From Pseudorhodobacter sp. PARRP1 (lineage in GTDB: Bacteria; Pseudomonadota; Alphaproteobacteria; Rhodobacterales; Rhodobacteraceae): a DNA stretch of 64,000 bases. Both the position numbers and the translations under genes were made by a program. Under the pieces are notes generated by a model. That model made no database searches, was not told the origin of the DNA, and saw only the letters and a list, made by a program, of their open reading frames with translations. Location of the stretch: assembly GCA_002256245.1 (NCBI GenBank), contig NKIU01000001.1, forward strand, positions 858,232-922,231. Direction: 5' to 3'. Below are positions 34,931 to 39,462 of this stretch, piece after piece; positions within the stretch are counted from its first letter, which is position 1; each line of letters starts with the position of its first letter.

Positions 34931-35109
34931 GGGCAAAGTTTACCCAAGGCCTGCGGCAAATCAAGCCCCGGAAATCACCGCATACAACCCATGCGTGCAA
35001 ATGCCCTTCCGGCTTGGGGACTCGTGCCCCGATTTTGCCGCCACAATGCCCGCAAATGGCCCCGCGCCCTGCGCAATGCCGCCGCGTTCGGGCGTCATAC
35101 AGAACGGGC

Positions 35110-35210
35110 TACAGTGCAACGAAACCGGTGGAGCAGGTCTTTGCCCCCGCCCAGCTTGCTTCACCGGCGCTGTCGCAACAAAGGCCTCTGCCGCAAGGTA
35201 GAGGCCTTTT
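35110..35210 (+). ncRNA. Candidate small RNA with two hairpins
   Basis: A gene-free 311-bp region (34931-35241) holds a large hairpin, CCGGTGGAGCA (35125) pairing with TGCTTCACCGG (35157) with one G-U, then a 10-bp AAAGGCCTCT/AGAGGCCTTT stem (35180-35209) followed by T residues. The arrangement fits an independent sRNA with an intrinsic terminator. No promoter hexamers were identified with confidence. Confidence 0.3.
35180..35210. terminator. Bidirectional terminator
   Basis: A perfect 10-bp stem, AAAGGCCTCT/AGAGGCCTTT, with a 10-base loop and T-rich flanks both ways. It could end the asparaginase transcript on the minus strand and any plus-strand transcript. Confidence 0.7.
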
Positions 35211-35241
35211 CCATATCGCAGGCACGCTTGGTCGCGCAGGC

Positions 35242-36234
35242 TTACAAAAACCCGCGAGCCAGCCGCAATTCGCCCACCGTCAGGCCGCGGCAGTTCACCT
35301 CCGGCGCGGGCAGGCGTTTCTGAGCCATCGGGTGGGCGGCATCCAGCACCCCCAACTGCGCCAGTATCGCCACCAAAGCCGCTTCCGAGGCGCGGGAATT
35401 GCCATCCTCGATCTTCAGCGCCACGCCCAGCTTTTTCTCGGGGATGATGGCGATGAACACCGCCTCGGCCCCGGTCTTGATCGCCACCCGGCCCCCCATC
35501 GCGCGCATCAACTCGGTGCAGGCCCGGCCCTCGCCCGCAACCAGTTCGGGGTGGGCGGCCATCGAACGGGTCAACCGGTGCATCGCGCGGTCGCGCACCG
35601 AACCCGTGTCCTTGGACGCAGCAAACGCCGCCATGCCGCGCGCAAGCCCCGCCACCGACATCGCGAAATTCGGCGCCGAGCAGCCGTCGATGCCGTAACC
35701 GGCGCTGGTCTCACCGGTGACTTCCTCGGTCGCGGCCTTGATCGCCTTTTGCAGCGGATGATCCAGCTCGACGTATTCCGGCCCGGCCTTCAGATGCTGC
35801 GTGGTGGTCAAGAACCCCGAGTGTTTGCCGGAACAGTTGTTGTGCAACTGACAGTGCGCTTCATGGCCCAAGATCAGCCGGTCGCGCTCGGTGCGATCGT
35901 AGGGTTCATGCGATCCACACCGCAGGTCGGCCTCGCCCAGACCCAGATCGGCCAGCCAGCGGTTGGCCATGCCCACATGCAGCGCCGCCCCCTGATGGCT
36001 GGCGCAAGACAATGCGATATGGGCATCGCTCAGCCCCGCCGCATCGGCCGCACCGGATTCCAAAAGCGGCAAGGCTTGCAGCATCTTGCACGACGAACGC
36101 GGAAAGATCACCCGGTCCGCATCACCCCAGGCCTGCACGATCTGGCCTGCCTCATCGCAGATCACCGCGTGGCCGCGATGCGTGCTTTCCAGCAATCCGC
36201 CCCGCCACAGCTCCACCATTTCTGCCGCTGCCAT
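35242..36234 (-). CDS. Asparaginase (Asparaginase_II, Rhizobium type)
   Basis: A 330-residue protein of the Asparaginase_II family (the Rhizobium etli AnsA type), unrelated to the common bacterial asparaginases. Supporting segments are FPRSSCKMLQALPL, HNNCSGKHSGF and GYGIDGCSAPNFA, with conserved serine-lysine and cysteine positions. It hydrolyses L-asparagine to aspartate and ammonia, probably in the cytoplasm since no signal peptide is present. MAAAEMVELWRGG is the first reasonable start. It stands alone, and a terminator follows at 35180-35210. Confidence 0.88.
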   Translation of the reverse strand: MAAAEMVELWRGGLLESTHRGHAVICDEAGQIVQAWGDADRVIFPRSSCKMLQALPLLESGAADAAGLSDAHIALSCASHQGAALHVGMANRWLADLGLGEADLRCGSHEPYDRTERDRLILGHEAHCQLHNNCSGKHSGFLTTTQHLKAGPEYVELDHPLQKAIKAATEEVTGETSAGYGIDGCSAPNFAMSVAGLARGMAAFAASKDTGSVRDRAMHRLTRSMAAHPELVAGEGRACTELMRAMGGRVAIKTGAEAVFIAIIPEKKLGVALKIEDGNSRASEAALVAILAQLGVLDAAHPMAQKRLPAPEVNCRGLTVGELRLARGFL

Positions 36235-36412
36235 GCCATCCCCCTCACATATGCGCGATTTTCTGCCCGTTTGGCCCCGGCAGGGCTTTTACGAAGCGTC
36301 ATTTTTCGGTTATGAAGGCATATCGAGTGAAATTCTTGCGCGCCATCGAAAAACCGCACCTGAAGCGGCCACACCGGCGGGCAGAGGCAAAACGGCTTGG
36401 AGGCTGTAGAAC

Positions 36413-36940
36413 ATGACAAGCTGGATGACGCGCGCGGCAGGCGTTGCGATGATTTCCGTGATGGGCTTTGCGACGGGCGCTGTGGCGCAAGAGTCGACAA
36501 ACCGCGTCGCCACCATGACGGATTGGAGCGTGTTTGCCGACAAGAACCCGACCGAATGTTGGGGTGTGTCAAGCCCGAAGGAAACCGTCAACACCAAGGA
36601 CGGCAAGCCGGTTTCGGTGCGGCGCGGCGATATTTTGCTGTTCGTCACCTTCCGGCCCGGCGCCAAGGGTGAAACCTCGTTCTCGGGCGGCTATCCGTTT
36701 GCGCCGGGGTCCACGGTAAAGCTGGATGTTGATGGCACCTCGTTTGATCTGTTTGCAGATGGCGAATGGGCGTGGCCGGGAACTTCTGACGACGATGCGA
36801 CGATTCTGGCGGCGCTGAAAAAGGGCACCACGGCGGTGCTGACCGCGCGGTCGGCCAAGGGCACCCAGACCAAAGACAGCTTCAGCCTGCGCGGCTTTAC
36901 CGCCGCGATGGACGAAGCCGCCAAACAGTGCGCCCAGTAA
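36413..36940 (+). CDS. IalB-family periplasmic protein
   Basis: A 175-residue exported protein with a signal peptide cleaved after about residue 25 (ATGAVAQE). The mature part, with TDWSVFADKNPTECWGVSSP and a second cysteine near the C-terminus, matches the invasion-associated locus B family, widespread in non-pathogenic alphaproteobacteria. Bartonella IalB affects erythrocyte invasion; here a general envelope role is more plausible. GGAGG lies upstream of the ATG. No obvious operon partner. Confidence 0.85.
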   Translation: MTSWMTRAAGVAMISVMGFATGAVAQESTNRVATMTDWSVFADKNPTECWGVSSPKETVNTKDGKPVSVRRGDILLFVTFRPGAKGETSFSGGYPFAPGSTVKLDVDGTSFDLFADGEWAWPGTSDDDATILAALKKGTTAVLTARSAKGTQTKDSFSLRGFTAAMDEAAKQCAQ

Positions 36941-37048
36941 TCTGACGCGCGCCGGGTTTAGCTGACCCAATATCTCAAGATTTTCGCAACCGGGGCATCG
37001 CCTCGGTTGTTTGCATTTGCGGCCTTGGCAAAGATTTGGTGGCTGTGG

Positions 37049-37078
37049 TTGAATTTGTTCCTGTTCTGTTCTATATTC
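37049..37078 (+). promoter_or_regulatory. Promoter with LexA box (SOS type)
   Basis: TTGAAT, an 18-base spacer and TATATT form a near-consensus promoter ending about 30 bases before the next ATG. Inside the spacer is GTTCCTGTTCTGTTC (37057-37071), an exact GTTC-N7-GTTC, the known LexA box of alphaproteobacteria. Bound LexA would block RNA polymerase. Confidence 0.75.
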
Positions 37079-37107
37079 AAAGTCCAGAACCAAGACGAGG
37101 TGATGTT

Positions 37108-37401
37108 ATGGAAGCCACTACATTTGCCATCGCTGCGACAGAGCGGCAGTTGTCTTACGCCCGCTCGTTGGCGCAGCGCAATGGGGTCGTGCTGCCGTGG
37201 GATGTGCAGTTGGATCGCCGCAGCCTCAGCACGTGGATTGACGCGCAGGCCAAACTGCGCCCGATGGAAAGCGATGGGCGGCCCAGCTCGAAACAGGTGG
37301 CCTTTGCCGAGAAGATCGCGCGCTACAAGCGCCGTGCGGTGCCGGATGAATGTTTCCGCGACCGCCAGTTGCTGGCGCGCTGGATCGACAGCAACCGCTG
37401 A
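37108..37401 (+). CDS. Small tandem-repeat protein, probably SOS-induced
   Basis: A 97-residue basic protein of unrecognised function. It consists of two gapless 35-residue units: 11-45 (TERQLSYARSLA...STWID) and 60-94 (SSKQVAFAEKIA...ARWID), which share Q, A, A, P, DR, L and WID at matching positions. Each unit looks like two helices with a loop. No signal peptide. The ORF is open further upstream, but the ATG at 37108 follows GAGGTG and the promoter is placed for it. A LexA box lies in the promoter, so expression probably rises after DNA damage. The protein may bind DNA or a repair factor; that is inference only. Confidence 0.72.
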   Translation: MEATTFAIAATERQLSYARSLAQRNGVVLPWDVQLDRRSLSTWIDAQAKLRPMESDGRPSSKQVAFAEKIARYKRRAVPDECFRDRQLLARWIDSNR

Positions 37402-37730
37402 CGTTGGGGCTGATCGACATTCACGCGCTTGCGGATCGTCAGACCGGGCGGGGTTTACCCCTGAAGTCGGCTCAACGGGAAACCACATGAGGCCATTCAG
37501 GCCCGGCGGTTTCAGCGGCATCCGCACCGCGTGGCGAAGGCGATGGCCTTCGCCAGAGTTTCGAAGGAGACTGTCGATACCCTCCAGACTTCGCGCAAGC
37601 AGGTCGGAAATGGCATGAAAACCGTGCCATTTCATCTGTGGCCGGAGGATAATTCAGAATATGCATCCATTGCCCCTGTGCTGTGCCAAAGGTATGCAAT
37701 GGGCAAAACTTTTGCATGGAATCGCAGCGC
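37402..37730 (+). other. Structured leader region upstream of ribH2
   Basis: 329 bases without a supported gene. Two strong hairpins are visible: TGGCGAAGGC/GCCTTCGCCA (37532-37555, 10 bp) and GAAATGGCA/TGCCATTTC (37607-37633, 9 bp). A 67-codon ORF (37531-37734) overlaps them and is probably spurious. I looked for an FMN riboswitch, known upstream of ribH2 in some Rhizobiales, but its conserved blocks are not present. Confidence 0.45.
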
Positions 37731-38189
37731 ATGACCCAAGCCCAGACCCCCGCCCGCATCGCCTTTATCAAAGCCCGCTGGCACGCAGACATCGTCGATC
37801 AGGCGCATAACGGCTTTGTGGCCGAGGCGAAAACCCTGCTGCCCGGTGCCACGATTGACGCCTTCGAGGTGCCCGGCGCGTTTGAGATGCCGCTGGTGGC
37901 GAAAAAGCTGGCCAAGACCGGACGCTATGATGCGATTGTCGCGGCGGCTTTGGTGGTGGATGGCGGGATTTACCGGCATGATTTCGTGGCCGGGGCCGTG
38001 GTGACGGGGCTGATGAATGTGGGCCTGGAAACCGGCGTGCCGGTGTTTTCGGTCTCGCTGACGCCGCATAACTTCCAGCCGGTCGATAGCCTGATCGCCT
38101 ATTACACGGCGCATTTCGTCAAAAAGGGTGCCGAGGCCGCCCATGCTGTGCAGCAGATTCTGGCGCTAGAGCCGCAGCTTTCGGCCTAA
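37731..38189 (+). CDS. ribH2: 6,7-dimethyl-8-ribityllumazine synthase, type II
   Basis: A 152-residue lumazine synthase matching the Brucella/Mesorhizobium RibH2 type: [27 protein letters not shown], the [25 protein letters not shown] segment and [14 protein letters not shown]. It condenses 5-amino-6-ribitylamino-uracil with dihydroxybutanone phosphate in the next-to-last step of riboflavin synthesis. RibH2 forms decamers and is less active than RibH1, and is thought to supply flavin under special conditions. I chose [12 protein letters not shown] as start. It is apart from other rib genes (ribA at 2.5 kb). Confidence 0.88.
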
Positions 38190-38268
38190 AGCGGCGCGGC
38201 TGATATGGTGGTTTTGTTTTGCCCGCAAATCCCCTATATCAGTCGCTTCCCAGCCCAAGGACGCTGCC

Positions 38269-39462
38269 ATGACTGCCCCGACCCAACACGCCCCGATCAC
38301 CCAAGACGTGCTGACCATTCCGCGCAAAATCCCCGAGGGCGGCAAGCCCAATCTTGTGGGCATGACGCGCGATCAGATGCGCGATGCGTTGATTGCGGCG
38401 GGCACGCCGGAAAAGGCCGCCAAGATGCGGGTCGGGCAGGTCTGGCAATGGGTCTATCATTGGGGCGTGCGCGATTTTGACCGCATGACCAATCTGGCCA
38501 AGGATTACCGCGCGCTGCTCGCCGAAAATTTCGTGCTGGAAGTGCCAGAGATCGTCACCAAACAAGTCTCGACCGATGGCACCCGCAAATATCTGGTCCG
38601 CATCGCCGGCGGGCACGAGGTTGAGGTGGTTTATATCCCCGAAACCGACCGTGGCACGCTTTGCATCTCGTCCCAAGTCGGCTGCACGCTGACCTGCACC
38701 TTCTGCCACACCGGCACGCAAAAGCTGGTGCGCAACCTGACGGCGGCGGAAATCGTGGGGCAAGTGATGCTTGCGCGCGATGATCTGGGCGAATGGCCGG
38801 TGCCCGGCGCGCCACGCGTGGAAACGCGGCTGGTCAGCAATATCGTGCTGATGGGCATGGGCGAGCCTTTGTATAACTTCGACAATGTGCGCGATGGGAT
38901 GAAGGTTGTGATGGACGGCGAGGGCATCGCCTTGGGTCGTCGCCGCATCACCCTGTCGACCAGCGGTGTGGTGCCGGAAATCGCCCGCACGGCGCAGGAA
39001 ATCGGCTGTCTGCTGGCCGTTAGCTTCCATGCAACGACGGATGAGGTCCGCGACGTGCTGGTGCCGATCAACAAGAAATGGAACATCGCGACGCTGCTGG
39101 AAGCCCTGCGCGAATACCCGAACCTGACCAATTCCGAGCGTATCACCTTTGAATATGTGATGCTGGATCACGTGAACGACAGCAAGGAAGACGCGTATCG
39201 CCTGATCGAGTTGCTGCGCGGCATCCCGGCCAAGGTCAATCTGATCCCGTTCAACGAATGGCCGGGGGCGCCTTACAAACGCTCGTCCGGCAACCGGATT
39301 CACGCCTTTGCCGACATCCTGTATAACGCCGGTTTTGCGACGCCGATCCGCACTCCGCGCGGCGAGGATATCATGGCGGCCTGTGGGCAGTTGAAATCGG
39401 CCACCGAAAAGCAGCGCAAATCGGCGCTGAAGGCCAGCCCGAACGCCGCCGCGGCTGAGTGA
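38269..39462 (+). CDS. rlmN: 23S rRNA (A2503-C2) methyltransferase
   Basis: A 397-residue radical SAM enzyme that methylates C2 of A2503 in 23S rRNA (and A37 of some tRNAs). The iron-sulfur motif is CTLTCTFC (CxxxCxxC), followed by the SAM-binding [11 protein letters not shown]. The essential methylated cysteine is in the C-terminal IMAACGQL. The N-terminal extension of about 20 residues before the core is typical of alphaproteobacteria. It stands alone; ribH2 ends 79 bases upstream. The ORF begins at an ATG preceded by a GGACGC segment rather than a clear ribosome site. Confidence 0.96.

Follow-up and report, generated by a model that had tools for sequence, protein, structure and literature searches.

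The 97-residue protein encoded at positions 37108-37401 of the window (the whole 64,000-nucleotide stretch of Pseudorhodobacter sp. PARRP1 DNA that was analysed) corresponds, as judged from homology, to the tandem C-terminal tail of plasmid TopB-type topoisomerases, here encoded on its own. Its gene is very likely under LexA control and probably adds a new member to the SOS response of bacteria. Comparison at the level of sequence establishes the promoter with its operator, the deep conservation of both operator and protein, the homology with TopB tails and the spread on plasmids. The function is proposed tentatively, at somewhat short of an even chance: a LexA-repressed, basic, helical adaptor that would bind DNA or a replication or repair partner after damage or conjugative entry. 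The biochemical role of the protein is assigned with marked reserve.

Gene and promoter organisation

All features described here lie on the forward strand. The coding sequence extends from an ATG at 37108 to a TGA at 37399-37401 and is preceded by a likely ribosome-binding site, GAGG (37097-37100), which was read from the sequence and lies 7 nt before the ATG. The encoded protein is MEATTFAIAATERQLSYARSLAQRNGVVLPWDVQLDRRSLSTWIDAQAKLRPMESDGRPSSKQVAFAEKIARYKRRAVPDECFRDRQLLARWIDSNR. Upstream is a promoter match formed by the -35 hexamer TTGAAT (37049-37054), of which TTGA is kept in the promoters of homologs, and the conserved -10 hexamer TATATT (37072-37077). The two hexamers are 17 nt apart, and the pair is one of two promoter-like matches (9/12) within 900 bp. 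The preliminary description had placed an exact GTTC-N7-GTTC box between these elements; it is present there at 37057-37071 as the conserved LexA-type operator GTTCCTGTTCTGTTC, which fills 15 of the 17 spacer bases and has its first base 51 nt upstream of the ATG. An Rfam scan of window positions 35000-39000 gave no match.

The same description had divided the protein into two gapless units ending in WID, and self-alignment bears this out: 36 residues are aligned with 10 identities, and the local score is 53 compared with 42 for the best of 2000 shuffles. Unit 1 (residues 11-46, TERQ...WIDA) is encoded at 37138-37245 and has predicted helices at residues 12-25, 31-35 and 37-48; unit 2 (residues 60-95, SSKQ...WIDS) is encoded at 37285-37392 and has predicted helices at residues 61-74, 80-83 and 86-96. 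The protein has a pI of 10.2 and a net charge of +5.5; the bulk of this charge is in unit 2, the more basic of the two. An AlphaFold2 model is all-helical with three helices per unit (mean pLDDT 86, pTM 0.51). Among same-genus orthologs dN/dS is 0.04-0.11, which indicates that the gene is under purifying selection.

Conservation of the operator

A single GTTC-N7-GTTC match is a chance-level event: two are seen in the window where 1.48 are expected, and the 4.35-Mb genome of the strain contains 83, fewer than for the reversed control pattern. Consequently, the case for an operator rests on comparison between genomes. This chance level is consistent with the box being bound by a different repressor, or having arisen by chance and been passed on by common descent, as are the close relationship of the plasmid copies to one another and the partly different N7 composition of the family boxes and the lexA/recA sites. 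Such an origin is nonetheless highly improbable in view of how the box is conserved.

The exact box is found upstream of the gene in 85 of 90 distinct homologous loci. Of the remaining five, L053 and L090 have a single mismatch to the box, L091 and L123 are truncated or altered copies, and L055 has no box. A GTDB scan gave 544 relatives, and promoters were examined for the best 80 of these; 78 have the exact box, L239 has it with one mismatch and L250 has none. The 90-locus and 80-locus sets share members: same-genus and other genomes are present in both. Intact homologs without the box at the same place, which according to the preliminary description would speak against its proposal, are thus nearly absent from either set. 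Other forward boxes number only 10 in the 800 kb of the 80 loci, corresponding to 0.0016 expected per 130-bp promoter.

The box is also kept while its flanks diverge, which argues against simple common descent. In 48 promoters with less than 70% mutual identity, the mean outside the promoter core is 0.13 bit; TTG, TATAT and the T preceding each GTTC remain high. A divergent branch of the family (about 41-61% identity to the window protein) is found mostly on long contigs and is mostly chromosomal. In this branch the box is not lost: it has shifted towards the start codon or, in L101, L106 and L120, is doubled in register; retention at changed distances from the start codon is likewise difficult to reconcile with chance or another repressor.

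The doubled arrangement in L101, L106 and L120 consists of three GTTC half-sites in direct repeat with 11-bp spacing, equivalent to two overlapping boxes. The same triple half-site is found before a photolyase-like gene in the genome of the strain (G000:C7:234188-234213, L194). Triple half-sites may be bound by more than one LexA dimer.

Correspondence with the lexA and recA operators

The regions upstream of lexA and recA were compared in 30 of the homolog-bearing genomes. GAAC-N7-GAAC, which is the GTTC-N7-GTTC site read on the complementary strand, is found upstream of lexA in all 30, and the same operator is found upstream of recA in 24; the recA gene of the window's own genome has a site with one mismatch. 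In the same orientation, the lexA site of this genome is TGTTCTGCCCGTGTTCT and the window site is TGTTCCTGTTCTGTTCT. The window site and the lexA/recA operators have in common an extra T ahead of the second GTTC. This T, at base 11, is present in 86 of 89 family boxes and 53 of 57 lexA/recA sites, compared with 22 of all 83 matches in the strain's genome. Half-sites, spacing and base-11 T are therefore equal to those at lexA and recA, a further argument against another repressor or chance.

Boxes with the extended motif in the genome of the strain precede genes for a PcrA/UvrD helicase, a photolyase/cryptochrome-DASH-like protein, a radical-SAM DNA-repair protein (TIGR03916) and an IMS-family (ImuB-like) polymerase. 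A matching GTTC/GAAC consensus has been used for Dinoroseobacter shibae (PMC6473078). Since the window site matches the lexA/recA operator of the same genomes, LexA-regulon membership is strongly supported; together with the conservation of the box, this upholds the earlier suggestion that the gene might be a new member of the SOS response.

Homology with topoisomerase tails

The preliminary description considered the design of the protein impossible to match with a known gene. This no longer holds: it matches the tandem tail at the C-terminus of plasmid TopB-type topoisomerases, present here as a separate gene. When 58 stand-alone proteins were compared with five TopB tails using hhalign, the match had a probability of 99.8% (E 3.2e-30) over 91 columns and covered both units. 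A tblastn search of plasmids gave 201 matching records; among the matches listed, the close ones are Rhodobacterales plasmid genes annotated 'hypothetical protein', and those further removed are annotated as DNA topoisomerases in Variovorax, Xanthomonas, Bradyrhizobium and Campylobacter. A plasmid gene of Paracoccus denitrificans PD1222, PDEN_RS25350, is also a homolog. Topoisom_bac is present in all of the topoisomerases examined, and Toprim in all except a short Variovorax gene; the two units occupy the C-terminus or lie close to it. The tandem module is also present in another topoisomerase, a Dolichospermum phage protein. In the class-wide sample only four matches, all weak, lie outside the taxonomic family, and three of these are ORFs of 732-859 codons with a sequence resembling TopB with such a tail.

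The 97-residue protein has no match to Toprim or Topoisom_bac and is thus not itself a topoisomerase. No curated family covers the TopB tail, and no fitting family for the protein was found in Pfam, NCBIfam, PHROGs (E 0.28 or worse) or PADLOC (none). Weak matches to HA (helicase-associated), TfoX_N, LPD22 and other Pfam families (E 0.002-1) are mutually inconsistent and were rejected. A PDB sequence search gave nothing significant.

The gene is present as a single copy in the genome of the strain, and no other match to the protein was found there at E up to 1; it follows that this genome has no TopB with such a tail. This bears on a quite unlikely function, in which the free tail would vie with TopB for a DNA or partner site and so restrain the topoisomerase or plasmid transfer during SOS. 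Homology with TopB tails across both units fits a competitor of this kind, and a small inhibitor of type IA topoisomerases is known in YjhX/TopAI, a protein of 85 residues (PMC4666372). However, YjhX was not matched by sequence in Pfam or NCBIfam, and in a genome without a tail-bearing TopB the competitor would need a shared partner.

Some relatives deserve separate mention. In one Rhodobacterales TopB tail (L128, G036:C367) the second unit shows 61% identity to the window protein, a likeness which suggests exchange between fused and free forms; its gene has the one TopB promoter checked, and no LexA box was found upstream. A 'DNA topoisomerase' of Variovorax PBL-E5 plasmid 2 (L296:2413-3255) has only 280 aa, comprising the end of Topoisom_bac and the tandem tail; it may be a step between the fused and the free form, or else a fragment. 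In the divergent branch, the N-termini of L105, L107, L114, L116-L118 and L120 contain QLSMF, QHSLF, QPSLF or PG[LI]F, which are similar to the beta-clamp motif. Only four N-termini fit the strict pattern, and a beta-clamp-binding motif is not claimed for this branch.

Distribution and genomic context

Homologs are present in 67 of 298 genomes of the Rhodobacteraceae sample, which contains almost one genome per genus. Around 200 plasmid records match; the majority are stand-alone Rhodobacterales copies, and many are conjugative. By typing, 118 records are conjugative when TopB-tail records are included, and 72 of 137 are conjugative in a search biased towards stand-alone copies. Some plasmid carriers have RepABC and conjugative MOBP/MPF_T typing. 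Among the best 80 of the 544 GTDB relatives, ArdC-like (zincin) genes are nearby in 25 loci and ParB in 24.

Other copies are on long chromosomal contigs. In five same-genus genomes (matching contigs named Cypionkella) the gene lies just upstream of a ribH-like gene; two further genomes have ribH without the gene upstream. In two loci that do not contain the gene (L304 and L305; G002:C109 and G014:C43), the stretch upstream of the ribH-like gene resembles, by eye, an FMN-riboswitch leader. Extra copies in the same genus are found on short contigs of 8.0-8.7 kb (G003 C14, C21 and C23; G005 C62), which are possibly plasmid fragments.

The four plasmids of Sulfitobacter CB2047, pSpoCB-1 to -4, were considered as carriers, but none of the four records contains a match. 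Three of the four are linked to prophage stability (PMC9044938); as they do not contain the gene, it does not explain prophage stabilisation there. A study of the D. shibae 102-kb plasmid reports lexA as differentially expressed, without a link to the window gene (PMC9426580).

Carriage on conjugative plasmids, with ArdC-like and ParB genes nearby, would fit a plasmid-derived anti-SOS or SOS-dampening factor, PsiB-like but controlled by host LexA. Release from LexA on entry of single-stranded DNA or formation of RecA filaments would induce such a factor, which would then feed back on RecA or single-stranded DNA; chromosomal copies would have been domesticated. Anti-SOS proteins are known from plasmid leading regions (PMC11541004). 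This function is unlikely, given the stable chromosomal copies, the absence of the gene from the CB2047 plasmids and the lack of a PsiB sequence match in Pfam and NCBIfam. In addition, PsiB-type genes are switched on at entry and are not known to be held under host LexA, unlike the LexA-type control seen here.

No conserved operon partner was found in the 80 loci; the protein therefore probably acts alone. Small monocistronic SOS genes elsewhere in bacteria are often growth or division inhibitors or toxins, and an SOS-induced role like that of SulA, SidA or TisB would be in keeping with a gene that has no operon partner. It is improbable, however, for a basic helical protein whose sequence and model do not suggest a membrane helix and which matches no family of this sort in Pfam or NCBIfam; moreover, fusion of the homologous module to topoisomerases points to DNA metabolism.

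Proposed mechanism

For the adaptor, we infer repression by LexA, induction by damage or entry of single-stranded DNA, binding to DNA or a partner, and an accessory role at intermediates. LexA bound to GTTC-N7-GTTC would block RNA polymerase because the operator sits between -35 and -10. DNA damage, or single-stranded DNA brought in by conjugation, would activate RecA; LexA would then be cleaved and the protein made. The module would bind either DNA, with single-stranded or branched forms the likeliest, or a replication or repair partner on DNA; its role as a topoisomerase tail is presumably the same binding. Once bound, the protein would assist or modulate processing of recombination or replication intermediates.

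As no described function of the TopB tail was found, binding to DNA or a partner is deduced from the fusion and the charge; on these grounds, a DNA- or repair-protein-binding role is a reasonable proposal. Against the adaptor count the lack of a significant PDB match in a Foldseek search with the AlphaFold2 model, the lack of a TopB with this tail in the strain, and the missing box in L055 and L250. A wider interpretation, possible though doubtful, is that the proteins form an undescribed Rhodobacterales SOS effector family, in which a plasmid topoisomerase tail has become an independent LexA-controlled factor, spread by conjugation and domesticated on chromosomes, that tunes RecA/single-stranded DNA or topoisomerase activity during damage or conjugative entry.

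Significance and comparison with known systems

With this gene, a major order of bacteria gains a widespread candidate member of its LexA regulon, one that ties SOS control both to conjugative plasmids and to type IA topoisomerases. It is present in nearly one in four of the genera sampled, almost always with the same switch and without a curated-family match. Two questions thereby become directly testable: what is bound by the unnamed tandem tail that plasmid topoisomerases bear, and why a host-SOS-induced copy of this tail rides on plasmids. Each ingredient is of a known kind, namely a LexA-controlled small gene and a topoisomerase accessory domain; a free-standing topoisomerase tail as an order-wide conserved SOS gene was not found in the titles, abstracts and passages of open-licence papers that the literature search covered.

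YebG is a small SOS-induced protein of E. coli of unknown function. It resembles the window protein in size and LexA-type control but not in sequence: neither the window protein nor 73 family members match the YebG family PF07130 at E up to 1, and one TopB tail matches YebG weakly (E 0.08). The alphaproteobacterial LexA regulon (lexA, recA, uvrD, imuB and others) has the same operator, which is set in the promoter spacer here; the product of the window gene is absent among the SOS genes named in the papers surveyed.

PsiB-type proteins of conjugative plasmids are likewise plasmid-borne, small and tied to SOS, and ArdC-like genes adjoin several copies of the window family. In contrast to them, the window family has no sequence match, is apparently LexA-controlled, and is also stably chromosomal beside the ribH-like gene.

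The closest likeness is to type IA TopB tails of plasmids and ICEs (Xanthomonas pCIX43, Variovorax PBL-E5 plasmid 2, Campylobacter plasmids, Dolichospermum phage Dfl-JY45), which have two consecutive units of about 36 aa as found here. TopB tails and the window protein share the motif KQ..[YF]A..[LI]A...P......[LM]..W[IL]D. Unlike TopB, the window gene is separate, encodes 97 aa without Toprim or catalytic domains and has its own LexA-type promoter; in contrast to the TopB tails, the stand-alone proteins have a near-invariant KRR in unit 2.
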